A DNA stretch of 64,000 nt from Erysipelotrichaceae bacterium (GTDB taxonomy: Bacteria; Bacillota_I; Bacilli_A; Erysipelotrichales; Erysipelotrichaceae), in the NCBI GenBank assembly GCA_017432885.1, contig JAFRIE010000014.1, positions 62,001-126,000 on the forward strand, given 5' to 3'. The translations under genes and the position numbers were made by a program. This document shows positions 13,079 through 33,010 of the stretch, piece after piece. Each line of letters begins with the position of its first letter. Position 1 is the stretch's first letter. Under the pieces are notes generated by a model, which saw nothing but the letters and a program-made list of their open reading frames with translations, was not told the origin of the DNA and did not search any database.

Positions 13079-15463
13079 TTATTGTTTCGTATTATGATAT
13101 TTCATCCAATCGGCTGCTGCATTGGCTCCCACAAACATCGTTCCGTCCGGATCAATGATTGTTGGAGTTTCTGTCAGGTTCAGTCTCCTGGCTTCTTCCA
13201 TATCCTGACTGCAGTTGACAGTCCTGTGTTCGATACCGCTAATCTGAAGTCTCTGTTCCGCACCCTTGCATTTTGGACAGTGATCCTGAACATAAATCGT
13301 TGGAATATCGAAACCGGTCAGTTTGTTTTCTTTGATCTCTTCCTGTTTTGCTTCTAGAACATCGGACATGATGTCTCTGGCTTTCATGACAGAAGATTCA
13401 ATATTATATTCCTTACGGTGCTTGAATTCCTGGACTTTGCCGTCGTTCCAGTTCTGGATCGGACGGTAGTAGCCGGTGATTCTCGACCAGACTTCCGTCT
13501 TTTTGCCGCACTTCGGACAGGTATAGGCTTCGCCCGTGATGTAGCCGTGTTCCGGACAGATCGAATAGGTCGGAGACATCGTATAATACGGAAGCTTGTA
13601 GTTGTCGGAGATCTTCTTTACCAGGTTGGCTGCCGCTTTCCAGTCAGGAAGTTTTTCACCCAGGAAGCAGTGGAATACCGTTCCGGAAGTATACAGCGTC
13701 TGCAGCTCGTCCTGAACATCCAGAGCCGTAAAGATATCTTCCGTATAGCCTACCGGCAGGTGGGAAGAGTTGGTGTAGTAAGGTGTTTCTCCTTCTTTGC
13801 CTGCGGTAATGATATCAGGGTACTTTTCCTTGTCATGCTTGGCAAGACGGTATGCTGTCGATTCTGCCGGCGTTGCTTCAAGGTTGTAGAGATCGTGATA
13901 CTGCTCCTGATACATGACCAGCCTCTTACGCATGTAATTGAGCACTTCTACGGCGAACTCCTGCGATACCTTGTGAGTCAGATCCTTTCTGATCCAGTTG
14001 GCATTCAGACAGGCTTCATTCATTCCTACCAGGCCGATAGTTGAGAAGTGATTGTTGAAAGTTCCGAGATATCTCTTGGTGTAAGGATACAGTCCGTTGT
14101 CAAGAAGCTTGGTAATGACTTCCCTTTTGACATGCAGAGACCTGGCGGCTATATCCATCAGATTGTCCAGACGCTTGTAGAAGTCTTCTCTATCCTTAGC
14201 CAGATATGCCAGTCTCGGCAGATTCAGTGTTACGACACCGACAGAACCGGTAGATTCGCCGGAGCCGAAGAAACCGCCGGATTTCTTTCTCAGTTCTCTT
14301 AAGTCAAGACGTAGTCTGCAGCACATCGAACGGATATCTGACGGCTTCATGTCGGAATTGACATAGTTAGAGAAGTAAGGCGTTCCGTATTTGGCCGTCA
14401 TTTCAAACAGCATCTTGTTGTTTTCCGTTTCAGACCAGTCGAAGTCTCTGGTGATGGAATAAGTAGGAATCGGATACTGGAAACCTCTGCCGTTGGCATC
14501 GCCTTCGATCATGACTTCGATGAAGGCCTTGTTGACCATATCCATTTCCTTCTTGCAGTCCTTGTACTTGAAATCCAAGGTTCTGCCACCGACGATACAG
14601 TACTGGTCGGCCAGGTCTTCCGGAACCGTCCAGTCCAGGGTGACATTAGTAAATGGAGCCTGCGTGCCCCAACGGGACGGCGTATTGACACCATAGATAA
14701 AGGACTGGATGTTCTGCTTGACTTCCTTGTAGGAAAGATTGTCCACCTTTACAAACGGAGCAAGATACGTATCAAATGACGAGAATGCCTGAGCACCTGC
14801 CCATTCATTCTGCATGATACCCAGGAAGTTGACCATCTGGTTGCACAGAGTACTTAAGTGGTTGGCAGGTGTTGAAGTGATCTTGCCGTTGACGCCGCCC
14901 AGACCTTCCTGAATCAGCTGTTTTAATGACCAGCCGGCACAGTAGCCCGTCAGCATCGACAGGTCGTGAATATGCATGTCGCCGTCTTTGTGGGCACTTC
15001 CGATTTCTTCGTCATAGACTTCAGAAAGCCAGTAGTTGGCCGTGACTGCACCGGAATTGGAAAGGATCAGACCGCCTACGGAATAAGTAACGGTAGAATT
15101 CTCTTTTACTCTCCAGTCGATCGCATTGACATAGGAATCCACTAGTTTCTTGTAGTCCAGCATCGTTGTGGAGATATTTCTGGCTTTTTCTCTCTGCTTC
15201 CTGTACAGGATGTAGGCCTTTGCCACGTCCGGATAACCTGCTTCTGACAGGACTTTTTCTACGGAGTCCTGAATGTCTTCTACGGTGACCTTCTCATCCT
15301 TGACTTTCGATGCAAAATCGGAAGTTACTCGCAAGGAGATCAGATTGATCACATCCGGATGATACTCCTTCTTGCAGGCATCGAATGCTTTGGTAATGGC
15401 ATCCGAAATCTTGCTTAAATCAAAATCAACTGTTTTTCCATCTCTTTTAACTACTCGGTACAT
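13079..15463 (-). CDS. nrdD: Anaerobic (class III) ribonucleoside-triphosphate reductase with C-terminal glutaredoxin-like domain
   Basis: A 794-residue glycyl-radical enzyme that reduces NTPs to dNTPs without oxygen. Residues 1-95 form an ATP-cone allosteric domain. The catalytic barrel follows with MHIHDLSMLTGYCAGWSL and a later MCCRLRLDL. Near residues 636-652 a CPEH...CPKCG metal site precedes the radical motif RITGYYRP (Gly near 664). Typical NrdD ends about there; this one continues with a ~80-residue glutaredoxin-like domain (CPKC at 729-732, then TETPTIIDPDG, matching the cis-proline motif). The domain could deliver electrons internally in place of formate or a separate redoxin. The gene starts 4 bases after the activase gene. 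Confidence 0.95.
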   Translation of the reverse strand: MYRVVKRDGKTVDFDLSKISDAITKAFDACKKEYHPDVINLISLRVTSDFASKVKDEKVTVEDIQDSVEKVLSEAGYPDVAKAYILYRKQREKARNISTTMLDYKKLVDSYVNAIDWRVKENSTVTYSVGGLILSNSGAVTANYWLSEVYDEEIGSAHKDGDMHIHDLSMLTGYCAGWSLKQLIQEGLGGVNGKITSTPANHLSTLCNQMVNFLGIMQNEWAGAQAFSSFDTYLAPFVKVDNLSYKEVKQNIQSFIYGVNTPSRWGTQAPFTNVTLDWTVPEDLADQYCIVGGRTLDFKYKDCKKEMDMVNKAFIEVMIEGDANGRGFQYPIPTYSITRDFDWSETENNKMLFEMTAKYGTPYFSNYVNSDMKPSDIRSMCCRLRLDLRELRKKSGGFFGSGESTGSVGVVTLNLPRLAYLAKDREDFYKRLDNLMDIAARSLHVKREVITKLLDNGLYPYTKRYLGTFNNHFSTIGLVGMNEACLNANWIRKDLTHKVSQEFAVEVLNYMRKRLVMYQEQYHDLYNLEATPAESTAYRLAKHDKEKYPDIITAGKEGETPYYTNSSHLPVGYTEDIFTALDVQDELQTLYTSGTVFHCFLGEKLPDWKAAANLVKKISDNYKLPYYTMSPTYSICPEHGYITGEAYTCPKCGKKTEVWSRITGYYRPIQNWNDGKVQEFKHRKEYNIESSVMKARDIMSDVLEAKQEEIKENKLTGFDIPTIYVQDHCPKCKGAEQRLQISGIEHRTVNCSQDMEEARRLNLTETPTIIDPDGTMFVGANAAADWMKYHNTKQ

Positions 15464-15467
15464 ACGT

Positions 15468-16613
15468 TTACTCCTCTATCCCTCTTATCTCAATATTCCT
15501 CACATACGGCGCAGCTGCAGCCTTCATCTGTTCCAGGATTTCGATGCCGACCTCACTCAGCCCTTCCCGGATACAGGTCCCGTGATCTTCGAAATTCTGC
15601 AGATAATAGTTCTTTGCCCCTTCTATCCATCTGCCGATTTTTTCGAAGTCCGGAACTTCATGAAACTGTGCTACAACTGTCGTACGGAATTCGTAATCAA
15701 CATGGCCTTCCAGCAGGTAATCCTTGCTTCTGGCAATCTCAGTAATATCATAATGTTCAAGACCGATTGTTTCTGGGTATTTTTCCGGACAGGCCTTGAT
15801 GTCCATTGCCACATAATCTAGCAGCCCTTCTTCTACAAGCTGCCGCAGAGCTGTACTGTTCGATCCGTTGGTATCCAGTTTCACCAGCAGGCCCAGCTCT
15901 TTCACTTTTCTGATAAATTCGAAGATCCCCTTGTGAAGCAGAGGTTCTCCGCCCGTAATACAGATCCCATCAAGAATCTTCTTTCTGGTATCCAGATACT
16001 CCAGAATATCCCCTACGGAAATCTCGGAATCATTTTCATTGAGAAAGACCAGACTGCGGTTATGACAGAAAGGACATCTGAAGTTGCATCCTCCCGTAAA
16101 TACCGTACAGGCCATCTTTCCCGGATAATCCAGTAGAGTCAGTTTTTGCAGCCCATAGAAATGAATTTCTTCGTTTTCCAGCTGCTTCTCGTATTCTCTG
16201 GCTTTTTCGATCAGTTTCTTCTGCGTACGATTGTAAAGATCCAGCTCATCTGCAGACAGTTCGCTGCTCAGATAGGAATTCCACTCTGAGCGCATCCGAT
16301 ACAGCTCAGGCATGATAGTCTGGGTCCTATCTGTTGTATAAAGCAGTTTTGAACGCTTATCTGTCTCGCTATTTTCTATCCGTACATAAGAGAGCTGTTC
16401 CAGACGCTGAACCGACTTGGTGATCGTTCCCTTATCAAAGACACCCATTATAGCCAACTCATTCATGGAGATACCTTCATTCTCATAGATCTGGGTCAGC
16501 AGGATCAGTTGGGTATAACCGATATCGAATTTGGATAATAATTTATCAAAGTGTTTTTGATTGCAGCGATACAAAATAGAGGAGTCTAAACTTAGGTAAT
16601 TATTCTCGCTCAT
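15468..16613 (-). CDS. nrdG: MarR-type regulator fused to class III reductase activase (NrdG2-like radical SAM)
   Basis: A 381-residue fusion. Residues ~1-145 form a MarR-like winged helix (TQLILLTQIYENEGISMNEL, GTITKSVQRLEQLSYVRIEN, then a wing ending RSKLLYTT). Residues ~152-381 form a radical SAM activase. Its cluster motif CNFRCPFC (Cys 176, 180, 183) generates the 5'-deoxyadenosyl radical that charges the NrdD glycine, and CITGGEPLLH and LVKLDTNGSN follow. The reading frame is unbroken through the junction, which has a helical linker. GAGGT precedes the ATG. Two palindromes upstream are probable binding sites for its own MarR domain, so it may regulate its operon. It is the first gene of nrdG-nrdD-trxB. 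Confidence 0.9.
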   Translation of the reverse strand: MSENNYLSLDSSILYRCNQKHFDKLLSKFDIGYTQLILLTQIYENEGISMNELAIMGVFDKGTITKSVQRLEQLSYVRIENSETDKRSKLLYTTDRTQTIMPELYRMRSEWNSYLSSELSADELDLYNRTQKKLIEKAREYEKQLENEEIHFYGLQKLTLLDYPGKMACTVFTGGCNFRCPFCHNRSLVFLNENDSEISVGDILEYLDTRKKILDGICITGGEPLLHKGIFEFIRKVKELGLLVKLDTNGSNSTALRQLVEEGLLDYVAMDIKACPEKYPETIGLEHYDITEIARSKDYLLEGHVDYEFRTTVVAQFHEVPDFEKIGRWIEGAKNYYLQNFEDHGTCIREGLSEVGIEILEQMKAAAAPYVRNIEIRGIEE

Positions 16614-16873: not shown

Positions 16874-18010
16874 TTATTTTAGCCTTTCTGCCGCCTCCCT
16901 GATATAACTTCCTACATCAAAAGGCCTGTGTGCATCGGAAGCTGTAATAAGCTGTACCCCTTCTTTCTTAAAAACAGATAAGAGTTCATCTGAAAGACCA
17001 ATGTCCGGATGATGGTAGCGGTAATGACAACCGGTATTGATTTCAGCCATCATCGCTTGTTTCTTTAACAGACCGGCTATACGGGAATAGGTTTCAGACA
17101 GATCGTAGCTCGGATAGATATGGAACATTTTGATCGTATCAGGATGAGCCAGCCGGTCAAACAGACCGGAATTGATGCAATCGGCAAGCGCACCATAGTA
17201 ATCCCGATAGATCTGATCCGCCGGATAGACATTCCAAAGAAGTGCTTGGGAAAAAGACATGTCATAAAGAATAGAATTGATGGAATGGACGGCTCCGGTC
17301 AAGAAGTCAAAATGATACCCGGAAAGGATCTTTCTCAACATCGTTTCGGTATTACGAGTATAACAGACTTCCAGTCCGAATTTCACCTTGATCGGCAGAT
17401 CCAGCTGTCTTATCTCATCAATCAGGCTGATATATTCATCTAATGTATTATGAAATTTCGTCGGCTGTTTTAACCATTCTTTCTGTTCTGCGTAGACTTT
17501 GAGATGTTCATAACATGGTTCAAATTCCTTAAACCGGTGGGTATGATCCAGAATATCGATCTCATGAAGACCCTTTTTCACCGCTTCATCTACAAACTGT
17601 AAAACATACTCTTTGGAAAGATCTCCATATTCCAGATGCATGTGACAATCTGCCAGATAGGACTGGCTGTTCTTCCTGATCTCGATTCCCACTACACCGT
17701 ATTCTTTCTGTTTCTCAAGAGAATAGTATTTCAGCATATCTTCGGATCCTGCATTCCTTGTCTCTTCCTTAGTATAGCCGCAACGTTCCAGCGGAAGAGA
17801 ACGGTAGAGCTCTTTAAAATCTTTAAAATGGTAAAGACCGGTCACGGTGCAGATAATAACATCGTATTCTCTGTTACAATGATGAAAGAAGATGGTATCA
17901 CCCGTCTGTATTTTTCTTCTCTTCTCGTCGTTCAGCCTAAGCTCGATCGTCTTTTCGCCGTTTCTGATCTTCTCGAAAGAATCAGAATACAGTCTCATCT
18001 CATGCCACAT
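16874..18010 (-). CDS. ASCH domain fused to PHP-family phosphoesterase (histidinol-phosphatase-like)
   Basis: A 378-residue fusion. Residues 1-112 match an ASCH domain, a small PUA-like fold thought to bind RNA or nucleotides (FEKIRNGEKTIELRLNDEKR, TGDTIFFHH, then MLKYYSLEKQKEYGVVGIEI). Residues ~115-378 are a PHP metallo-phosphoesterase: ADCHMHLEYGD, DILDHTHR, FGLEVCYT, GAVHSIN, LAHPDTIK, EINTGCHYRYHHP and ITASDAHRPFDVG. PHP enzymes of this type include histidinol phosphatase, but no his genes are near. The two halves are normally separate genes. A -10 element ends 7 bases before the ATG and there is no Shine-Dalgarno, so the transcript may be leaderless. Confidence 0.85.
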   Translation of the reverse strand: MWHEMRLYSDSFEKIRNGEKTIELRLNDEKRRKIQTGDTIFFHHCNREYDVIICTVTGLYHFKDFKELYRSLPLERCGYTKEETRNAGSEDMLKYYSLEKQKEYGVVGIEIRKNSQSYLADCHMHLEYGDLSKEYVLQFVDEAVKKGLHEIDILDHTHRFKEFEPCYEHLKVYAEQKEWLKQPTKFHNTLDEYISLIDEIRQLDLPIKVKFGLEVCYTRNTETMLRKILSGYHFDFLTGAVHSINSILYDMSFSQALLWNVYPADQIYRDYYGALADCINSGLFDRLAHPDTIKMFHIYPSYDLSETYSRIAGLLKKQAMMAEINTGCHYRYHHPDIGLSDELLSVFKKEGVQLITASDAHRPFDVGSYIREAAERLK

Positions 18011-18078: not shown

Positions 18079-19239
18079 CTAGAACAGTAAAGAGTCGGTT
18101 TCCTCGACGTACTTGATCAGCTGTTTCTTATAATGCTCGATCAGTTCTTTCTGATCAGGCATTCTTTTGATCGTTCTTCTTAATGCTCTAGTATAGCCGA
18201 TCACTTTCGCTTTATCCATGACTGACTGTTTATAAACTTCATCTTTTCCATCAAAATAGAAATCAACCAGTTTATGCATGACATAGGTAGCTGTATCATA
18301 GTCCATCTGCAGGAATTTCTCAATCTGGCTGTGGTTCAGTTCTCCATAGCCCTGATACGCCAGGAAAATCGAAGCAAATTCGAAAACCGGATGGCCTGTG
18401 GATAAGGTGTCCATATCGATCAGAATGGCTTCGTTATTTGCGTAATGGACATTGTTGGTATGGTAGTCGCCATGAATCATCTTGTTGCTTTCTGGGACTT
18501 CTTCAATCAGTCTGCACAGCTTGTCATAAGTCTCTGCAGGGATGTATTCTTTCAGCCACTGAGCCCAGCCGAAAGCCGCTTTCTTGGCGGAAGGCAGGGC
18601 ACCTTCTTTCACGTCCGTCTGATGGATCTCCTTCAGCATATCCGCAAAGATCTTTATGTATTTGTCTTTGTTTTCCGGATCTTCGGCAATCAGTTTTGTG
18701 ATCGATTTAGCACTCAGAAGTTCAAATACAGAACCATATTTATCTCCGACTTTAACGACATCGAAAGGAATGGCGGTATTTACACCCATAACCAGGGCGG
18801 TCTTTGCCAGTTCTCTTTCTCTTTTGATGTCTTCAAGCGCATCGTTGTTCTTGTATACTTTGATGATCGTATCCGGATTCAGACGATAAACGATACCGTT
18901 AGAACCTTCGCCGATAACTTCACAGCCATCAATGCTTACCTTGCGGTAACCTTTTGAAATATCTATCATTTCGGAAAAACCGGTCATTTCGAAAATATCA
19001 TAGATCTCCGAAGAACAGTTGATGATTTTCAAATCCTTTTCTTTCTTCTTCAGTCTTAAGATCTGTCTTAATCCGGCGCTGGAAATGTATCTCAGTTCAT
19101 CCATATCCAACACCAGCTGACCTTCCGGATGTTCGTTCCGGAGTTCATCGACTTCCTTGCCGAATTCTTCCGCGTTGGCCGTATCAATGCTGCCGCATGG
19201 ATAAATGCTCAATACATCATTTTCATAAGTGTTTTTCAT
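18079..19239 (-). CDS. STAS domain fused to aminoglycoside-phosphotransferase-like kinase
   Basis: A 386-residue fusion. Residues 1-~95 are a STAS (anti-sigma-factor antagonist) domain with the phosphorylatable serine loop MDELRYISSAGLRQIL at residues 47-61. Residues ~105-386 form an APH/choline-kinase-like fold: a glycine loop (VIGEGSNGIVYRL), an IIKVYK lysine, a catalytic loop IHGDYHTNNVHY (His 256, Asp 258, Asn 262) and the metal aspartate in LIDMDT (Asp 275). It could phosphorylate a small molecule or protein under control of the STAS phosphorylation state; this is inference. AGGAG precedes the ATG. It is the last gene of an operon containing a PP2C phosphatase and HATPase kinases, the expected partners of STAS domains. 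Confidence 0.85.
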   Translation of the reverse strand: MKNTYENDVLSIYPCGSIDTANAEEFGKEVDELRNEHPEGQLVLDMDELRYISSAGLRQILRLKKKEKDLKIINCSSEIYDIFEMTGFSEMIDISKGYRKVSIDGCEVIGEGSNGIVYRLNPDTIIKVYKNNDALEDIKRERELAKTALVMGVNTAIPFDVVKVGDKYGSVFELLSAKSITKLIAEDPENKDKYIKIFADMLKEIHQTDVKEGALPSAKKAAFGWAQWLKEYIPAETYDKLCRLIEEVPESNKMIHGDYHTNNVHYANNEAILIDMDTLSTGHPVFEFASIFLAYQGYGELNHSQIEKFLQMDYDTATYVMHKLVDFYFDGKDEVYKQSVMDKAKVIGYTRALRRTIKRMPDQKELIEHYKKQLIKYVEETDSLLF

Positions 19240-19248
19240 ACTCGACTC

Positions 19249-19809
19249 CTACAGATATTTCGCAAAAACCGCATCGATAAGGAAACAGAATTCCTTATAT
19301 ACGGCATAGTCCTTCAGTTCTTCCAGAGCGTCTTTCAACTCATTGTAATACCAGTAATGCATCTTTGGATCCTTCTGATTAAAAGCGTTCCAGAATTCTT
19401 CTCCTTTATCCAGAAGACCCAGATGGAAACTTCTAAGGTTCGATACCTTGTCGCCCAGACATACCATCTTGGCACCCAGATCGTCGATCCGACGGATCGT
19501 CGCAATCGTTTCCCGTTTCCGGTCCAGCCAGGTATCGGCTTTATTCTTCTGTCCCCTTTTATCTTCGGATTCATAAGCAACAAGCCGGGCGATGTTTTCA
19601 CCGAATTCTCTTCTGATGTCTTCGATCGTTGCATCGGTATCTTCTACCGTATCATGAAGAACTGCCGCACACAAAACATCATCATCCAATGTCATTAAAG
19701 ATACCAGATTCAATACTTCCAGAGGATGGAAGATATAAGGCTGACCATTCCCTTTACGGACCATGCCTCTATGGGCTAAAGCCGCAAATCTGATTGCTTC
19801 ATCAATCAT
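19249..19809 (-). CDS. HD-family alarmone (ppGpp) hydrolase-like protein
   Basis: A 186-residue protein with the layout of the SpoT/MESH1 hydrolase domain: IRFAALAHRGMVRKGNGQPYIFHPLEV, VLCAAVLHDTVEDTDATIEDIRREFG (HD plus ED), then GDKVSNLRSFHLGL. There is no synthetase domain, so it would only degrade (p)ppGpp or act on a related nucleotide such as NADPH, as reported for MESH1. It overlaps the upstream phosphatase gene as ATGA and is followed closely by the STAS-kinase gene, so it belongs to the signalling operon. That placement suggests a link between the partner switch and stringent control. Confidence 0.85.
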   Translation of the reverse strand: MIDEAIRFAALAHRGMVRKGNGQPYIFHPLEVLNLVSLMTLDDDVLCAAVLHDTVEDTDATIEDIRREFGENIARLVAYESEDKRGQKNKADTWLDRKRETIATIRRIDDLGAKMVCLGDKVSNLRSFHLGLLDKGEEFWNAFNQKDPKMHYWYYNELKDALEELKDYAVYKEFCFLIDAVFAKYL

Positions 19810-21695
19810 TTCCTTATTTTCCTTCTCATGGTAAATATGTTCTGACCATTTCTTCTTTCATAACGGCATTCATCCATCGACTGCTTCACCATAAAAATAC
19901 CAAGGCCGCCGACTTCTCTTTCTTCAATACCGGCTTTGATGTCAGGATCCTCCTTGTCCAGCGGATTAAACGGGATACCGTTGTCGATCAGGTAGATCTC
20001 GACTTCGTCATGATCAAAACTCATGCCTATCGTAGCTTTCCCCTTGTTTTCAGGATAAGCGTAGTGGGAGATGTTGACAAACATTTCTTCCAGAGCTACG
20101 CTGATAGCCATTGTTGATTTCATGTCGGCTCCATGAGCTTCCAGGCCTTCTTCTACAAAGGCCATGACTTCATGAAGCTTCTCATCTGTTGCATCAAATG
20201 TCTTTTCCACAGTTTCTTTATCCTTGTTTTTTGGTGTATAGTCAAATGCCAGCAATGTCAAATCATCAAACTGTTCGGCATCTTTTACAAAGGCGTCGAT
20301 ATCGCTTCTGACTGCCTTTAAGGCTTGTGTACAGCTGGCATTCTTTCCTAGCCTTTTCAGACAGGAGATCAGCCTTTCTTCGCCGTAGAGCTCATTTTCG
20401 CTGTTGCAGGATTCCGTCGCGCCATCTGTATAAAGGAATATCTTATCGCCCTTGTGCAGAGTCAGATTCTGCTGAGTGAAACGGTATCCTTCCATTCCTG
20501 CCAGGACAAAGCCCGGCTTGCTGTGAAGATAGGATATTTCTCCATCCAACATAATGACCGGAGGATTGTGACCGGCATTGACATATACCAGTTCTCCATT
20601 CTCAATATCCAGAACGCCCATCCACGCCGTAACAAACAGTCCCGCTTCATTCCCTTCACAGAGGAGATCATTAACTCTGGTAAACACCTCTCCGGGAGAT
20701 AATCCCAGCTGTGAATGGTCCTTGATCAGGGTCTTAGCAATGACCATAAACATGGCAGCCGGGATCCCTTTGCCGGATACATCGGCAATCACCATAGCCA
20801 GATGTTTATCATCAACCATGAAGAAATCATAGAAGTCACCGCCTACAGCCTTGGCGGGGGTCATTGCCGCATAAATATCAAATCCGTCATATTCAGGAAA
20901 CGCCGGAAAGATATTCGGAAGCATATTGGCCTGGATGCTGCTGGCAAGATTCAGTTCCGTAGCGATTTTTTCGGTCTTCCTTGTTTCAGCCTGCTGAGAA
21001 AAAATGGCGATACGGCCCCTCTTTGCGATTTCTGCACAAACGGTTGCGACCATTCCATACATCAGCAGTTTCGGCAGATAGGCTTTTCCCATATAGGCAG
21101 TCCAGCTGGCTGCAAAATCCGTCGCTCCGCTGTTAAGAATCGCATCCTTCAGGCTGCCGTTTTCAAGACTGATTACCGCATTCTGAAGAAACTGTATATA
21201 GTTCAGATCCATCAGTCCGTGTCCCATCTTGATACCGTAATAAGAAGCAAATCCCGATAGCAGGGTCGTCAAGATAGCCGTTGAAACGCATATCGGTCTT
21301 GAATAATACCGTACCGACATGACAACCGGACATATCATGATCAGCGGAACGTTGTAAGTCATTGTTGCTTCTATCCCTGCACAGACGAAGGTATAGGTTA
21401 GAAGCATCAGGATCTTCAGCCATTTCTTTCTGCCCTTGAAATAAAGACATAGACCGGCAGGTATCAGCAGTATCGTAATCGAAAATAAGCCGATCCTGGT
21501 CATAAAGGCGTGATCAATATCCAGAATGCCGGCATAATCGATCAGCAAAACAGTCATGATGATCATTGCTGTTCCTATCAGCACTCTGGCTACCAGCAGA
21601 TTAGCGGCGACCTCGCTTTCCCACAGCGTATCGGTCGTACGGATAAACTCTTCTTCGAATCGTTTGATTACGCCTTTTTTTACTTTAATCAGCAT
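19806..21695 (-). CDS. Membrane SpoIIE/RsbU-type PP2C phosphatase with C-terminal HATPase (anti-sigma kinase-like) domain
   Basis: A 629-residue protein. Residues ~28-200 hold about six membrane helices. Residues ~235-455 form a PP2C/SpoIIE phosphatase (NMLPNIFPAFP, AVGGDFYDFFMV, MVIADVSGKGIPAAMFM, YVNAGHNPP, FLYTDGATES, AEQFDDLTLLAF). Residues ~490-625 form an RsbW-like HATPase (VALEEMFVNISHYAYP, IDNGIPFNPL, GGLGIFMVKQSMDE). Phosphatase and kinase for STAS proteins are thus on one chain. The likely target is the free STAS protein encoded 4 bases upstream, and perhaps the STAS-kinase downstream. There is no obvious ribosome binding site, so translation may be coupled to the STAS gene. Confidence 0.92.
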   Translation of the reverse strand: MLIKVKKGVIKRFEEEFIRTTDTLWESEVAANLLVARVLIGTAMIIMTVLLIDYAGILDIDHAFMTRIGLFSITILLIPAGLCLYFKGRKKWLKILMLLTYTFVCAGIEATMTYNVPLIMICPVVMSVRYYSRPICVSTAILTTLLSGFASYYGIKMGHGLMDLNYIQFLQNAVISLENGSLKDAILNSGATDFAASWTAYMGKAYLPKLLMYGMVATVCAEIAKRGRIAIFSQQAETRKTEKIATELNLASSIQANMLPNIFPAFPEYDGFDIYAAMTPAKAVGGDFYDFFMVDDKHLAMVIADVSGKGIPAAMFMVIAKTLIKDHSQLGLSPGEVFTRVNDLLCEGNEAGLFVTAWMGVLDIENGELVYVNAGHNPPVIMLDGEISYLHSKPGFVLAGMEGYRFTQQNLTLHKGDKIFLYTDGATESCNSENELYGEERLISCLKRLGKNASCTQALKAVRSDIDAFVKDAEQFDDLTLLAFDYTPKNKDKETVEKTFDATDEKLHEVMAFVEEGLEAHGADMKSTMAISVALEEMFVNISHYAYPENKGKATIGMSFDHDEVEIYLIDNGIPFNPLDKEDPDIKAGIEEREVGGLGIFMVKQSMDECRYERRNGQNIFTMRRKIRK

Positions 21696-21699
21696 GGCA

Positions 21700-21999
21700 T
21701 TATTCGATCGTCAGAATATCGATAAAACCGGTAATATCAAAGACTTCCATAATCTCCGGTTTGACATTCCTGATCGTCATTTTTCCGTTTTCACTTAAAC
21801 TCTTCTGGGCAAAAAGGAGCACTCTTAGACCGGCAGAAGAAATATAATCCAGTTTTTCAAAATCCAGATCCAGCTTTTTTATTCCCTGTTCAAGAAGTTC
21901 CTTCAGTTCCTTCTCCAGATCCGGAGCAGTCGTCGTATCAAGTCTCCCGACTAAAGCAATATCCGTTACATCATCTTTTACTGTTTTAATTATTTCCAT
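21700..21999 (-). CDS. STAS-domain protein (SpoIIAA/RsbV-like anti-anti-sigma factor)
   Basis: A 99-residue single-domain STAS protein. The phosphorylation loop is LDYISSAGLRVLLFA, with serines at 54-55. In known systems an HATPase kinase phosphorylates this loop and a PP2C phosphatase removes the phosphate, controlling binding to an anti-sigma factor or other partner. Both enzyme types are encoded immediately downstream. No sigma factor or classic RsbW is in the window, so the final output is unknown. A strong AAGGAGGAAG site precedes the ATG. Confidence 0.92.
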   Translation of the reverse strand: MEIIKTVKDDVTDIALVGRLDTTTAPDLEKELKELLEQGIKKLDLDFEKLDYISSAGLRVLLFAQKSLSENGKMTIRNVKPEIMEVFDITGFIDILTIE

Positions 22000-22019
22000 C
22001 TTCTTCCTCCTTAAAATGT

Positions 22020-22814
22020 TTATCTGTATGCAGAGCTGATTTTTGGCCTAATGCCATGCTCCTTAAATTTATCGTAAGAAACATCCATCAGTTTCATTCT
22101 GACTAGTTCTGACCTGTGTGCAGGGCACCTGTATCGGATCGCATAAATGACGCCGCGGTCAGAAATCTCCTGTATTCCTTCATAAAATGCATCCTTACAG
22201 TAGTTTGTTTCCTTTTTGATTGTTTCACAGACATCCTGCAGACACTCTTGAATGACCTGACGGTCTATTTCAAAATCAAACAGGAACTTCTGTATCCTGT
22301 TGTCCTTGATCTTTTCTACGGAAGTCATCAAGGAATTGTTTACCGTGTATGTTGAATTGGTCTGTATCGACTGCAGTTTCGTCACTCTGGCAGAGAAATA
22401 CTTAACATCGCATTCTTCACCATTGTATCGGATCAGGTCGCCTACCTTATAGAAATTGTAATTGTAGATGCTAATACCGGCAATGATATCCTTCAGCGTA
22501 TCCTGCAAGGCTAAGCCGATGATGGTAGCCATGATACCTAAACCGGCAAGGATCCTGGTGACATTGACACCATGCTGGTGCAGAATCATGACGATCGCAA
22601 TAATGACAACAACATACTGCAGGATATTAAATATAACCCCATAGAAAGTATTCTTATGCTGTTCGCCTTTTGTCGTATAAGCGACTTTCTTGATCAGGTA
22701 CTGTTTGATAATATAAAGCAACAGTCCGGTAACTCCGACAATAATCAGGCTTATCAAAAAAGGTTTGGAAGCAAAATACTTTATATCATTACCGATTTCT
22801 TGCGTCTCGTTCAT
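22020..22814 (-). CDS. Small-conductance mechanosensitive channel (MscS family)
   Basis: A 264-residue MscS protein with three membrane helices: PFLISLIIVGVTGLLLYII, then VIFNILQYVVVIIAIVMILHQHGVN, then the pore helix region ILAGLGIMATIIGLALQDTLKDIIAGI. The C-terminal beta domain contains GDLIRYNGEECDV. These channels open under hypo-osmotic stress to release solutes. I start at the ATG at 22814, where the helix TM1 lead begins, because the 60 residues upstream are charged and the gap is promoter-like (a TATAAT lies about 40 bases upstream). It sits between the MATE-HATPase and STAS genes, consistent with an envelope-stress theme. Confidence 0.85.
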   Translation of the reverse strand: MNETQEIGNDIKYFASKPFLISLIIVGVTGLLLYIIKQYLIKKVAYTTKGEQHKNTFYGVIFNILQYVVVIIAIVMILHQHGVNVTRILAGLGIMATIIGLALQDTLKDIIAGISIYNYNFYKVGDLIRYNGEECDVKYFSARVTKLQSIQTNSTYTVNNSLMTSVEKIKDNRIQKFLFDFEIDRQVIQECLQDVCETIKKETNYCKDAFYEGIQEISDRGVIYAIRYRCPAHRSELVRMKLMDVSYDKFKEHGIRPKISSAYR

Positions 22815-22897
22815 CTGTTTTACCAATCCAATCTCTAATAACTCTATTTTACTATTATATATGTGTTTCTTGTCCAATAATTCTATCTGATGCTTAT

Positions 22898-24643
22898 TTA
22901 AAGCCTGACTGTCAGGATGTTCATGCCGAAATTGATATGATAATTCATCTCTTTTGCGATCCTGGAAACCATGCGTATGCCGATGTTTTTGCACGGATCG
23001 GCCGGGTTAAACATCTCTACACGGGAATTCGGATCAAACGGGACGCAGTTGTCTCTAAGTCGTAAAGACACTTCTCCGTCCTCTACACAGGCAAAAATGT
23101 CGATCGTATTTTCTTTTCTGTCTTTCTCAAATCCGTGTTCCACGATATTTCCCGCCATTTCTTCCATACATAGACCGGCAAACATCGACCGGCGTTTATC
23201 AATACCCTTTTCCTGGCAGAATGTTTCAATCTTCCGGGATACTTCTACCACTTCAGACAACTTCTTGACCGAAATGGAATACTTGTTTTCCGTATTGAAT
23301 TCTTCCGGAAGGCCCAGCAGATCATCCAGATTCAGAATCGGTTTTTTTCTTTTCGATACAGCTGTCAGGTAGAAGACAGAAAGCGTAATGATTTCCGCAA
23401 TTGTATAGCTAAGCCAAATCGCCTTGATCCCCAGGACTTTTGACAGGATCGCACAGCAAAACAGCGGGACAAAAATACAGTTGACCGGATAAATCATATT
23501 ACATAGTTTTACCCTGCCCAGACTCTGATAAACGCCCATCAGAATGAGCGTGAAAATGTTGAACGGCGCACACCAGGCATAAAAGACCAGCAGCTGTTTT
23601 GACAGATCGATAACAGAACCGTAAGCTCCAAACAGCACCGCAATATTCTTACCGAAAGGATAGACGATCAGGAACTTGAACAAACATAGCGACAGGCCGA
23701 TAACGGCCGTGATCTTCATGAGTCTCTTCAAAGATCCGCTGTCTCTCTCTCCGATGAATACGCTAGCCAGCATAGTCAGGGTATTTCCTACACCAACATT
23801 GAAAGCATCCAGAAATCCGCCAAAGGATCCTAAGATCGCCATGGCGTTGACTGCTTCTTTCCCGCCGATAGAAGACGCATAGGAGTTCAGGAAGATGTTC
23901 CTAACGGAATATAAAATGCCTGCAAGGGAAGCCGGTGATCCGTATTTCAGAATATCGATGATCATTTTTCTGTCCGGCTTTTCTTTACAGAAAGAAACAA
24001 GATTCTTTCTGATACGGAAATATACGATCAGTCCCAGCATTGTGATCAGTTGGCTTAAAGAAGCGGCAGCTCCTACACCGAAGACATTGCCTTTCCATAC
24101 CCTGATCGCAAGCAGGTCTAGAATCGCATTCAGGACAGCCAGAACGATAGTGGCAATCAAGGAGATCCCTGATTTGTTGCACATCTGCAGGAAGGTCATC
24201 AGACACGGCAGTATCAGTAAAGGAAGTATGCCTAATGATACGCCTCTGATATAAGAAACCGTCTCCGGAATAACACTCTGTTCAGCACGCAGAAGAACCG
24301 CAAGCGGTTCAGCAAAGAAAAAACATATCGCAGTTAATAGAACACCAAGAACGCTTAATAAAATCATGGATACAGAAAAGACCTGGTCGACCTTCTTGCT
24401 GTCTCCTTTTCCCATATAGTTTCCGCAAAGGATTCCCGCACCTGTCGAGACGATCGTTGAAATGCTTCCGATGATGTTAAATAGCGGAGATACCAGACCG
24501 GAAGCGATCATGGCGGAAGCAGATAGGTTATTGCCAATGATCAGTCCATTAACAAATCTGCTTAAAGAAGAAGCAAGATTTACGAAAATCTGTATTGGAA
24601 GTAGTTTAAGAAACAGTTCGATTGTATTATTCAGATCGTTCAT
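22898..24643 (-). CDS. MATE-family transporter fused to C-terminal HATPase (RsbW-like) domain
   Basis: A 581-residue fusion. Residues 1-~440 show a MATE exporter with about 12 hydrophobic segments and the start FLKLLPIQIFVNLASSLSRFVNGLIIGNNLSASAMIASGL (shown only in part as family evidence). Residues ~455-581 form an HATPase domain: MFAGLCMEEMAGNIVEHGF (N box), RLRDNCVPFDPNS (G1 box), and KNIGIRMVSRIAKEMNYH (G2 region). MATE proteins couple cation gradients to drug or metabolite export. The fused kinase-like domain suggests control by, or output to, the STAS proteins in the same operon. GAGGT precedes the ATG. It is the first gene of the operon. Confidence 0.9.
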   Translation of the reverse strand: MNDLNNTIELFLKLLPIQIFVNLASSLSRFVNGLIIGNNLSASAMIASGLVSPLFNIIGSISTIVSTGAGILCGNYMGKGDSKKVDQVFSVSMILLSVLGVLLTAICFFFAEPLAVLLRAEQSVIPETVSYIRGVSLGILPLLILPCLMTFLQMCNKSGISLIATIVLAVLNAILDLLAIRVWKGNVFGVGAAASLSQLITMLGLIVYFRIRKNLVSFCKEKPDRKMIIDILKYGSPASLAGILYSVRNIFLNSYASSIGGKEAVNAMAILGSFGGFLDAFNVGVGNTLTMLASVFIGERDSGSLKRLMKITAVIGLSLCLFKFLIVYPFGKNIAVLFGAYGSVIDLSKQLLVFYAWCAPFNIFTLILMGVYQSLGRVKLCNMIYPVNCIFVPLFCCAILSKVLGIKAIWLSYTIAEIITLSVFYLTAVSKRKKPILNLDDLLGLPEEFNTENKYSISVKKLSEVVEVSRKIETFCQEKGIDKRRSMFAGLCMEEMAGNIVEHGFEKDRKENTIDIFACVEDGEVSLRLRDNCVPFDPNSRVEMFNPADPCKNIGIRMVSRIAKEMNYHINFGMNILTVRL

Positions 24644-29642: not shown

Positions 29643-29664
29643 AAAGACTCTGTAAGAGCCTTTT
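29642..29664. terminator. Hairpin between convergent genes
   Basis: AAAAGACTCT-GTA-AGAGCCTTTT forms a 10-bp stem with one mismatch and A/T flanks on both sides. It probably acts as a bidirectional terminator for the phosphoesterase gene and the propeller-phosphatase gene. Confidence 0.65.
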
Positions 29665-32600
29665 ATTTTCCTTTATACTCAAAGCACAGCATCGTCAGAT
29701 CGTCAAACTGTTCCGCTTCTTTAACGAATTTACCGACCGCCTCTGCTACATTTCCGATAATCTGATCAGGACTTGCATCTTGATCAATATTCAGTGCATC
29801 GATCAGCCTGTCCGTGCCAAACATCTTATTTTCGATATCGCTGGCTTCCGGAATGCCGTCGGTATACAGGAACAGTTTGGATCCGGCATGCAGGTCGAGC
29901 CGGTATTCATGATACTTGATTCCTTCCATACCTCCTACAACAAAGTCATGTTTATCTTTCATCAGTTCAAATTGTCCTTCCGGACTCTTGACGATCGGAT
30001 ATTCATGCCCTGCATTGGCTGCAGTCAGTATACCCGTTGATATTTCCAGAATACCGATCCATACTGTAACGAACATCTGAGCCTGGTTGTTGGAGCAGAT
30101 CGTTTCGTTAGTTTTGTTCAGAATTTCCGCAGGAGAGATGCCGGTTTTCGCATAAGTCTGCAGGATAATTTTTGAGACCATCATGAACAGCGCTCCCGGA
30201 ATGCCCTTGCCCGAGACATCAGCCATGACCATACATAGATGATCTTCATCGATCATGAAGAAATCGTAAAAGTCGCCGCCGACTCCTTTTGCCGGGTCCA
30301 TCAAGGCATAGATTTCAAATTCTTTTCGATCCGGAAAAGGCGGGAAAATGTGCGGAAGCATGCTTTGCTGAATGTTCGCGGCCATGGTCAGTTCATTGAG
30401 AATACGCTTCTTTTCCTCTTCTTCACGGTGATGTTTCTCCTGCAGCTGCAGTCTCTCGTTCACATATGTCCTTACCGTTTCAAAAATCAGCACGCTGACA
30501 GCAATGAAAGCTACGACATAAAACCAAGGCTGTTCATAGAAGGCCTTTTCTTTGACAATCTGTACGGATACCGTTTTGCTGACCTGTCCCATAGAATCCA
30601 TCAGATCCATGACAAAATCGTAAGTCCCGCCTGGAAGATTGGTGTAATACGCCGGGAAGACGTCACAGCTGCGGCCGACATTGTCAAACTTGTCGATTCC
30701 TTCCAGTCTGTAGGATACTGTAGGTTCCACCAGTGAATAAGTAAAAACATGTCCATGAATCGTCAGTTTGGTAAAATCATGCGGCAGCAGGAATTTCCCT
30801 GTCTCATCCGGATAGACGATCTGTCCGTCGATCTCGACATAAGGAACGGCTGCTTTCAGATTGCTGACATTTTCAATTGGTTCTTCCATATTGACCTTGG
30901 CTATGCCGGTCGTACCTGCTATGTATAGATCCCCTTCTTCCGTAAGTTCACTATAGGAATTGGCTGTCGCAATACAAGGAAGACCGTTGGATATGCTGTA
31001 ATGGAATGCATCGATCTTTTCGTTTTTCAGCAGATCTTCGATTTTTGCGATATAAATGCCGTTGCTGCATAATACCCATAATTCTTCTTTGCCGTTTTGA
31101 TAGACATCAAAGTTGTTTGGGTATGGGAAATTACTTATGGAAGTCACTTCATAATCTTCGTTCATATATGCCAGCGAATCACCTGTCACGATCCAATAGA
31201 TATGGTGATCCTCGTCGTACTTGATCCGCATGACAGCTCCGGAAGTCAGACCGTCTTTGTAGTTGATATTACGTGTCCCGTTTTCTGAAACGATAAAAAT
31301 GCCGCCTCCATCACTGCCGATAATGATCTCTCCATTCTTTCCTTCTGCCAGAGAGAGAATCTCCGTGTTGGTGATGTTATCGGATTCATCATAGGATGCA
31401 ACGATTCTGTCACCTTCGATGACACTGACACCTCCGGTATTTGCTACGAGGATCGATCCGTCTTTGCGTTCATAGACGGTCCGGATAGCATCTGAGAAAA
31501 GACCATCCGCAGCACTGAAAGCCGTGATTTCACCATCGTCATAACGAAGAAGTCCGTAACGGTTCCAGGTGCAGAACCACATTCTTCCTTTGGAATCAGA
31601 TATGATGGAACGGATACGTACGCCGTCAAGCATCTGCAACAAATCAGTAAAGCCCAGATCATTTCCGTCCGCTCCAACTGCCTTTTTTAGCGGCCACTCC
31701 GATACCAAACCGTCTTCATCAAATATAAGCAAGCCGTTATCAGTTGCGGCAAACAGTTTATTATCATATATCTTAGTAGAGTTTACGACCCGTTCCGTAA
31801 TACCATATCGTTCAAACAGGTCAATAAAACGATTCGGAACGATCTTCATAACACCCTGTCTTGTCGAAGTGAACCACAGGTTTCCTTCATAATCGGTCAT
31901 CACATGGCCGATAGAATTATTCATCGGGATGTTTTCCAGCTTGTGGAATCCTGTCTCATTCAGAACGCCAATGCCGTTTCGGGCACAGATCCAGATATCA
32001 CCATCGATGTTTTCGAATGACTGTATCTGAGATAAAGGCGATATATCGATCAGTTCAGAACTGCTGTTAAGATTATCAAGGCTGTCGTGATACAAAACAG
32101 AATCAACCGTTTCCAGATAAAGAAGACCGGCATTTTCAGGATCAGGGAAGATGCAGTTGATGCCCCTGATTGACGTATCCTGGTAAGAATAGTAGTGATG
32201 TACAACGCAATCACGGATGGTGAAGACATCTCCGGAATTTGTCAGGCCATAGATCGTCCCGTCTATTCCTCTTCTAAGATCATGCAGGAAAGCATTTTTT
32301 ATTTTCGTATGGCTCAGATAATACGGGTTAAGATCCTCATCAAATACAAGCAGTCCCTGTGTCGTAGCAACCAGTATTCTTCCCTGGGGATCTTCTACAA
32401 TTGAACGGATCGAAGGAGATTTCAGACCTTCGTTGTATCCCCATTTACGGTACTCGTCATGGTTCATCAAGGCGACGCCATTGTTGTTGGTGCCGATCCA
32501 GAGCCGGTCTTTGCTGTCGACATACAGGCACTTAACTCCGGTAATGCCGGCAGTAGAATCCATACGTTCAAATGTACTCCCATCATAACGGATCAGACCG

Positions 32601-32896
32601 CTGTAACTTCCGATCCAGATAAAACCGTTGGATGTTTCTACGATGTCGTTGGCTTCCGATGTCGGCAGACCATTGGTATTGTTGTAGAGTACAGCCGAAT
32701 AATCTTCATCCTGCCCTACCGGATCTACCGCAACATGTCCGTTGTGTTTTCCCGAATCGAACCGGGTCTCGTCCTCTTCTTCACCTGAAACAAAATAAGC
32801 TGTCTTGCATGCAAATACAGAGAGTATAAAAAAACACAATATAATAGCAATAATATTTCTTTTAACTGTTTCTTTTTTCTTATTAATTTCAGTCAT
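29663..32896 (-). CDS. Sensor phosphatase: extracellular two-component-type propeller, Y_Y_Y domain, TM helix and cytoplasmic PP2C (SpoIIE)
   Basis: About 1077 residues from the preferred ATG (others at 32929 and further up). A signal/anchor helix (IIAIILCFFILSVFACKTAYFV) is followed by ~650 residues of propeller repeats of the Reg_prop type (NGFIWIGSYSGLIRYDG, DRLWIGTNNNGV, GNLWFTSTRQGV), then a Y_Y_Y-like domain (YTNLPGGTYDFVM), a TM helix (WFYVVAFIAVSVLIFETV), a coiled linker and a PP2C phosphatase (GVGGDFYDFFMI, VMADVSGKGIPGALFMM, AEQFDDLTMLCF). This sensor architecture usually drives histidine kinases; here it drives a STAS phosphatase. It resembles the phosphatase of the 18-24 kb operon. 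The predicted -10 (32915-32920) favours the 32896 start. Confidence 0.87.
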   Translation of the reverse strand: MTEINKKKETVKRNIIAIILCFFILSVFACKTAYFVSGEEEDETRFDSGKHNGHVAVDPVGQDEDYSAVLYNNTNGLPTSEANDIVETSNGFIWIGSYSGLIRYDGSTFERMDSTAGITGVKCLYVDSKDRLWIGTNNNGVALMNHDEYRKWGYNEGLKSPSIRSIVEDPQGRILVATTQGLLVFDEDLNPYYLSHTKIKNAFLHDLRRGIDGTIYGLTNSGDVFTIRDCVVHHYYSYQDTSIRGINCIFPDPENAGLLYLETVDSVLYHDSLDNLNSSSELIDISPLSQIQSFENIDGDIWICARNGIGVLNETGFHKLENIPMNNSIGHVMTDYEGNLWFTSTRQGVMKIVPNRFIDLFERYGITERVVNSTKIYDNKLFAATDNGLLIFDEDGLVSEWPLKKAVGADGNDLGFTDLLQMLDGVRIRSIISDSKGRMWFCTWNRYGLLRYDDGEITAFSAADGLFSDAIRTVYERKDGSILVANTGGVSVIEGDRIVASYDESDNITNTEILSLAEGKNGEIIIGSDGGGIFIVSENGTRNINYKDGLTSGAVMRIKYDEDHHIYWIVTGDSLAYMNEDYEVTSISNFPYPNNFDVYQNGKEELWVLCSNGIYIAKIEDLLKNEKIDAFHYSISNGLPCIATANSYSELTEEGDLYIAGTTGIAKVNMEEPIENVSNLKAAVPYVEIDGQIVYPDETGKFLLPHDFTKLTIHGHVFTYSLVEPTVSYRLEGIDKFDNVGRSCDVFPAYYTNLPGGTYDFVMDLMDSMGQVSKTVSVQIVKEKAFYEQPWFYVVAFIAVSVLIFETVRTYVNERLQLQEKHHREEEEKKRILNELTMAANIQQSMLPHIFPPFPDRKEFEIYALMDPAKGVGGDFYDFFMIDEDHLCMVMADVSGKGIPGALFMMVSKIILQTYAKTGISPAEILNKTNETICSNNQAQMFVTVWIGILEISTGILTAANAGHEYPIVKSPEGQFELMKDKHDFVVGGMEGIKYHEYRLDLHAGSKLFLYTDGIPEASDIENKMFGTDRLIDALNIDQDASPDQIIGNVAEAVGKFVKEAEQFDDLTMLCFEYKGK

Positions 32897-32914
32897 TGCA
32901 GTTTTTATATTTCT

Positions 32915-32942
32915 ATTATATCGTTTCATAGAGACATGTAAC
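32915..32942 (-). promoter_or_regulatory. Predicted promoter of the sensor phosphatase gene
   Basis: On the minus strand GTTACA (32937-32942) and TATAAT (32915-32920) are 16 bases apart. Transcription would begin about 12 bases before the ATG at 32896. No Shine-Dalgarno is visible in that short leader. Confidence 0.5.
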
Positions 32943-32983
32943 AGAAAAACAAACAACTTCTTTCTATAAGCAGAGTGCATATA

Positions 32984-33007
32984 AAAAGCTTCCTTCCGGA
33001 AGCTTTT
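32984..33007 (-). terminator. Terminator of the S10-spc-alpha superoperon
   Basis: A 10-bp perfect stem (AAAAGCTTCC / GGAAGCTTTT) with a 4-base loop, followed by TTTTTATATG on the minus strand. It directly follows rplQ. Confidence 0.93.
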
Positions 33008-33010
33008 CAA

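Follow-up and report, generated by a model that had tools for sequence, protein, structure and literature searches.

What does a partner switch control when no sigma factor is encoded beside it? This question is raised by six consecutive genes at 18079-24643 of a 64,000-nucleotide stretch (the window) of contig JAFRIE010000014.1, from an Erysipelotrichaceae bacterium (assembly GCA_017432885.1). Partner switching is known mainly for freeing sigma factors. Here, the component families of such a system, namely an HATPase serine kinase, STAS proteins and a PP2C phosphatase, are all present and clustered, and some of them are fused to an exporter and to a small-molecule kinase. Considering these fusions, the operon probably controls transport and metabolism directly rather than transcription. 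On balance, we favour a membrane-anchored partner switch with a STAS-tethered kinase and a transporter as its predicted outputs in place of a sigma factor. A preliminary description, made from the sequence alone, had proposed a similar partner switch. Its central part stands, that is, a partner-switch-like module that is not linked to a SigB/SigF-type sigma factor and whose switch domains are physically joined to APH, an enzyme, and MATE, a transporter, whereas the osmotic and alarmone roles that it added fared less well.

Switch core and operon layout

We searched the open reading frames of the window with Pfam and NCBIfam profiles. Reading frames and profiles agree with the six genes and domains of the preliminary description, all on the minus strand, and confirm its three fusions: MATE-HATPase, PP2C-HATPase and STAS-APH (Table 1). 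Its statement that all six proteins carry SpoIIE-, RsbW- or RsbV-type components does not hold for two of them, MscS and HD, neither of which has a STAS, PP2C or HATPase part.

The residues expected of a functional switch are retained in the core. The PP2C-linked HATPase has intact N, G1 and G2 boxes (EEMFVN, DNGIPF and GGLGIFMV) when compared with RsbW (6m36), and the core HATPase keeps EExxxN, DxGxP and GGLGI across relatives. The acidic (Asp) residues of PP2C are invariant or nearly so across loci, and SSAGLR is kept, with few exceptions, in both the free STAS and the STAS-APH sequences; its second serine aligns with the known phosphorylation site of SpoIIAA and RsbV. The ATP-binding residues, which the preliminary description regarded as decisive for its HATPase domains, are thus present in the PP2C-linked domain, but the G1 and G2 boxes of the MATE tail are altered.

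The genome, an assembly of 1.8 Mb that is 73% complete, was searched family by family. It contains two HATPase_c_2, two STAS and five PP2C genes, and no STAS or HATPase_c_2 gene was found outside the operon in the assembled part. The other PP2C sensors are of dCache-HAMP, 5TMR-LYT and propeller types, against a single STAS/kinase core. Absences in this genome are provisional because of its incompleteness. A classical anti-sigma system, in which the HATPase sequesters a sigma factor, STAS is the antagonist, and the fused enzyme and transporter do no more than supply additional inputs, would agree with the fit of the free STAS to the anti-sigma factor antagonist model, with RsbW as the nearest solved structure to the HATPase, and with the several sigma factors of the genome that have regions 2 and 4. 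However, neither the operon nor its recurring neighbours included a gene recognised as encoding a sigma factor, and the earlier statement that neither a sigma factor nor a classic RsbW/RsbT is present holds for the operon. SigB and SigF have region 3, unlike the four non-primary sigma factors of this genome, which consist of regions 2 and 4 without it. As the fusions of HATPases to transporters, PP2C and STAS-APH also point elsewhere, we consider a classical anti-sigma system improbable.

MscS follows MATE after 83 bp, STAS follows MscS after 20 bp and PP2C-HATPase follows STAS after 4 bp; HD overlaps PP2C-HATPase by 4 bp, and 9 bp separate HD from STAS-APH. For MscS, we set the start at ATG 22814 instead of GTG 22994, because the relatives in loci L035-L037 have 264 amino acids. 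The tight spacing indicates that the last five genes are very likely co-transcribed as a single unit; MATE belongs to this unit with less certainty and may be transcribed from a separate start. Promoter and terminator scans gave matches no more numerous than in shuffled sequences; therefore, the operon limits are based on spacing and conservation.

Table 1. Genes of the operon, in order of transcription, and a second PP2C gene in the window (profile matches with E values).
Feature	Position (strand)	Length (amino acids)	Profile matches and motif
MATE-family exporter with C-terminal HATPase_c_2 (residues about 449-581)	22898-24643 (-)	581	Pfam MatE 2.7e-39; HATPase_c_2 2.2e-9
MscS-type mechanosensitive channel	22020-22814 (-)	264	Pfam MS_channel_2nd; MS_channel_1st
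Free STAS protein	21700-21999 (-)	99	Pfam STAS 5.9e-17; TIGR00377 (anti-sigma factor antagonist) 5.1e-19; YISSAGLR
Transmembrane region, SpoIIE-type PP2C and C-terminal HATPase_c_2	19806-21695 (-)	629	Pfam SpoIIE 1.7e-46; HATPase_c_2 1.5e-22
Small HD hydrolase, RelA/SpoT-hydrolase type	19249-19809 (-)	186	Pfam HD_4 1e-21
STAS fused to APH-fold kinase	18079-19239 (-)	386	Pfam STAS 4.8e-13; APH 3e-15; best NCBIfam match TIGR02172, below its cut-off
Second PP2C protein, propeller type	29663-33010 (-)	1115	Pfam Reg_prop 1.3e-24 (two-component-regulator propeller repeats); C-terminal SpoIIE 1e-45

Gene order in the genus and survey of loci

Conservation of the gene order was the other point on which the preliminary description had staked its reading. 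The order MscS-STAS-PP2C/HATPase-HD-STAS/APH was found again across the genus, in nine relatives (L035, L036, L038, L039, L040, L041, L043, L045 and L048), and this recurrence indicates that it is not due to chance. MscS lies ahead of STAS in most complete genus loci. Variants also occurred: HD is absent in L044, the HATPase is a separate small gene in L069-L071 and L082, and a STAS-HAD fusion is inserted in L050 and L051. The named records from the clade of the window are Erysipelotrichaceae and Solobacterium metagenome-assembled genomes, mostly from ruminant gut.

When HATPase_c_2 genes were counted in eight genus genomes, seven had one or more core HATPases together with one or more HATPase frames of MATE size. 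In seven related genomes that were checked (89-99% complete), the HATPases were only core, MATE-linked or paired ones, except for a hydrogenase-type one in genome G001. This second HATPase of G001 was ruled out as a MATE partner, as it sits among NADH dehydrogenase/hydrogenase-type genes; the small HATPase_c_2 protein of that cluster (L155, at about position 62669 of contig 19) is apparently unrelated to partner switching.

We then considered STAS-APH beyond the genus. A scan with one genome per species matched at least 598 stretches, of which 549 were confirmed; here, we discuss the best 80 of the 549, picked for the STAS-APH fusion only, with neighbours counted within the same-strand gene run around STAS-APH. 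These loci came from Erysipelotrichaceae, many Clostridia metagenome-assembled genomes and two records labelled Spirochaetes. An HATPase was present in 66 of the 80 gene runs, a free STAS in 48, PP2C in 45 and the HD protein in 38, and 75 contained at least one of these core parts; MscS and MATE-HATPase occurred in six and five runs, respectively. The location of the HATPase varied, being fused to PP2C, alone, or at the C-terminus of STAS-APH (8 loci). Such swapping of fusion partners is a usual signature of proteins acting on each other, and the STAS-APH-HATPase fusions presumably hold a putative kinase and its putative substrate in one chain. Occurrence was patchy: among 398 genomes of the Clostridia-type phylum, STAS-APH-type matches were found in 6 at E 1e-20 and a MATE-type HATPase in 12.

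STAS was also found fused to a Cof-type HAD hydrolase (L050:4216-5298, L045:10579-11670, L044:2539-3690 and L073:9757-10869). This fusion sometimes adjoins STAS-APH and sometimes lies in a separate cluster of STAS, HATPase, sensor kinase and response regulator, which precedes a RuvX-like gene (sensor kinase, response regulator and RuvX-like gene were named by eye).

Transporter fusions and tethered enzymes

The MATE protein has two MatE repeats (Pfam, two stretches) and scores above the cut-off of TIGR00797. Its tail matches the PP2C-linked HATPase in profile-profile comparison (E 1.7e-18) and keeps the N box (EEMAGN), whereas G1 (RDNCVPF, Gly to Cys) and G2 (KNIGIRM) are altered, a pattern common to most genus members. 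Because of these two altered boxes, a kinase role of the tail is only putative. MATE-HATPases in general retain EExxxN and the G1 Asp; in most of them, G2 is changed and the Gly of G1 is replaced by Cys. With the HATPase tail alone as the query, the 398 genomes yielded eight frames of MATE-HATPase size (L171, L172, L173, L174, L175, L176, L177 and L178). All eight adjoin a PP2C gene or lie one gene away from it, and a STAS gene is also nearby in five. They had not been selected for this context, and STAS-APH was matched in only two of the eight genomes. In addition, fusions of 532-555 amino acids with the unrelated SDF family occur in the STAS-APH operons of L094, L101, L116 (9156-10763), L125 and L134. 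Pfam identifies the L116 protein as a sodium:dicarboxylate symporter (SDF 4.7e-53), and the N-terminal domain of the SDF fusion is derived from the HATPase family, as judged by profile comparison with the PP2C-linked HATPase (E 1.3e-9). Two unrelated transporter families therefore bear a switch-kinase domain, and the transport link of the preliminary description was independently confirmed by both results.

The HATPases on transporters may, however, be pseudokinases that serve as docking sites, where STAS binds and gates the transporter, with phosphorylation of STAS left to the PP2C-linked or stand-alone HATPase. The SDF-fused domain is clearly HATPase-derived but no longer has the Asn of the N box, the Asp of G1 or the glycines of G2, and the MATE-fused domain has the G1 and G2 changes described above. 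On the other hand, the MATE tail keeps the N-box Glu and Asn and the G1 Asp, so that nucleotide binding and catalysis remain possible, and the distant L174 keeps GGLGIYL. A docking-only role is favoured for the SDF fusion; for transporter-fused HATPases as a whole, it is a serious alternative to which we give a little less than even weight, and it would refine rather than replace the proposed switch, being compatible with the rest of the mechanism.

GH3-family acyl-adenylate-type enzymes adjoin MATE-HATPase/PP2C clusters in Oscillospiraceae-type genomes (L087:4279-5937, assigned by Pfam; L095:4281-5942 and L177:4077-5681, assigned by similarity), and these enzymes may make a compound for export.

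Within STAS-APH, YISSAGLR, HGDYH....N and LIDMDTL are invariant across 13 genus-level relatives, and the motifs of the APH fold (HGDxxxxN and IDxD) are present. An AlphaFold2 model (mean predicted local distance difference test score, 91; predicted template modelling score [pTM], 0.74) gave APH(2'') enzymes as the best Foldseek matches (E 6e-11). These matches are aminoglycoside 2''-phosphotransferases, as would be expected if the protein were an antibiotic resistance enzyme in a stress operon. However, it is only about 15% identical to those enzymes, its family occurs across commensal gut clades as part of a signalling operon, and the full-length protein was found in no plasmid record; we therefore reject a resistance function as highly implausible.

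Among solved structures, the nearest matches of the HD protein are small alarmone hydrolases, Lmo0812 (4yf1, 2.1e-24) among them, together with MESH1 and the hydrolase domains of RelA/SpoT. It conserves HDTVEDT and DKxSNxRSF (the HD, ED and D-N residues) and, like small alarmone hydrolases, combines a RelA/SpoT-type HD fold bearing HD, ED and DxxxN with the lack of a synthetase domain. The genome also encodes a single long RelA/SpoT protein, separate from the HD protein. Hydrolysis of (p)ppGpp by the HD protein is speculative, and another nucleotide could also be the substrate. The protein is a frequent partner of STAS-APH, but the alarmone link itself is one that we infer. Osmotic release through MscS, also put forward in the preliminary description as an output, is a guess: the channel is a frequent neighbour in the genus, yet it occurs in few of the 80 loci, and it may be merely a neighbour.

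Several observations weigh against the proposed switch. Apart from the closest relatives and genome G014, in which MATE-HATPase adjoins the core, the genus has it in an unlinked position; in G001 (99% complete), it is seemingly absent according to the HATPase_c_2 counts in eight genus genomes. G006 and G015 each have one further stand-alone STAS and HATPase pair. In the model of a natural STAS-APH-HATPase fusion, the domains fold but their mutual arrangement is not confident (pTM 0.59), and we therefore claim no kinase-substrate interface. A SpoIIAB, RsbW or SigF homologue possibly lies in the unassembled part of the window genome. Moreover, gene clustering is no proof of contact between the products. 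The true system may be restricted to STAS, PP2C-HATPase and STAS-APH, with MATE, MscS and perhaps HD as mere neighbours, which would explain the low counts of MscS and MATE-HATPase in the survey, the unlinked MATE gene of most genus members and the 83 bp before MscS. Nevertheless, the independently found MATE-HATPases lie beside PP2C and mostly near STAS, and bear a switch domain themselves, and HD and MscS recur in the survey and in the genus, respectively. We regard this restriction as unlikely for the three genes together, although for MscS alone it is quite possible.

Proposed mechanism and related systems

In the membrane-anchored switch that we favour, the HATPase of PP2C-HATPase would phosphorylate the second serine of ISSAGLR on both the free STAS and STAS-APH, and the PP2C half would remove this phosphate upon a sensed signal, as would probably the other sensor PP2Cs (dCache-HAMP, 5TMR-LYT and propeller). 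Unphosphorylated STAS domains would dock on HATPase domains. The free STAS and STAS-APH would compete for this docking, and the phosphorylation state would decide between release of the APH kinase and its retention at the membrane, while docking on the HATPase tail of MATE would set transport. The APH domain would phosphorylate a small molecule or nucleotide, and the (pyro)phosphorylated substrate of the HD hydrolase would probably be the same compound or a linked one. Phosphorylation, docking, the direction of control and the substrates are our predictions from the observed domain make-up, residues, clustering and swapping of fusions.

A more specific version, which we put forward tentatively and consider rather doubtful, has opposing STAS-tethered enzymes, a kinase (STAS-APH) and, in some relatives, a phosphatase (STAS-HAD; L050, L089 and L045), acting on one small molecule under the control of the membrane PP2C/HATPase, with HATPase-tailed MATE and SDF transporters moving that or a linked compound. 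Were this version true, partner switching would directly control a small-molecule phosphorylation cycle and transport without a transcription step.

The Bacillus switches SpoIIAB/SpoIIAA/SpoIIE and RsbW/RsbV/RsbU share the same domain families with this operon, including an HATPase serine kinase, a STAS protein with a conserved serine and PP2C. They differ in that no SigB/SigF-type sigma factor was found here, both the phosphatase and transporters carry a fused kinase domain, and a second STAS is fused to APH. Rv1364c of Mycobacterium tuberculosis, a multi-domain protein tied to sigma regulation, also has PP2C followed by HATPase in one chain and is the nearest solved structure of the PP2C-HATPase region (3ke6, E 3.1e-16), but it is sigma-linked rather than transport-linked. 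In HsbR/HsbA of Pseudomonas, an enzyme is governed by a small partner protein, which is itself under the control of a kinase and phosphatase. Similarly, the kinase and phosphatase of SiaABCD, also from Pseudomonas, control a small partner governing a diguanylate cyclase (PMC8457831). SiaABCD is among the closest systems in logic, although the enzyme in both cases is a separate c-di-GMP cyclase, not a STAS-fused APH, and neither has a transporter fusion. Also among the closest in logic is SypE of Vibrio fischeri, a serine kinase and PP2C in one protein that acts on the STAS protein SypA, the downstream output, without a sigma factor (PMC10120452). SypE has the order kinase-REC-PP2C and SypA is a lone STAS, whereas in the present operon PP2C precedes HATPase after a membrane N-terminus, REC is lacking and a STAS is fused to an enzyme. 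STAS domains govern transporters in SulP/SLC26 and MlaFB (PMC8256260, PMC7367683), but in those systems the transporter itself carries STAS, as a fusion or as a bound partner, while here the HATPase is on the transporter and STAS is separate. The HD protein resembles the small alarmone hydrolases Lmo0812 and MESH1 in sequence and motifs and differs from them in clustering with a STAS-APH kinase. No description of STAS-APH (TIGR02172), MATE-HATPase or HATPase-SDF fusions was found in the open-licence literature searched.

Fusions of the same switch parts, with transporters of two unrelated families as well as with kinases and phosphatases of small molecules, occur in several hundred genomes, most of them from gut Clostridia and Erysipelotrichaceae. 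If the proposed switch is correct, it would provide a post-translational path from membrane sensors to transport and metabolism, a route hidden by annotation as "anti-sigma factor antagonist", and the natural fusions would make kinase-substrate pairs directly testable.

Some neighbouring genes are worth recording. The propeller-PP2C protein of the window (Table 1) is also encoded near the operon in the close relatives L036 and L037, and it is possibly an extra sensor input to the switch. Directly downstream of the operon, an ASCH domain is fused to a PHP (HisJ-type) phosphatase (16874-18010, minus strand). Further on, at 15468-16613 (minus strand), a MarR-like helix-turn-helix N-terminus is joined to a radical-SAM activase; this gene was read by eye, and the activase was likewise assigned by eye to the anaerobic ribonucleotide reductase encoded alongside (13079-15463).

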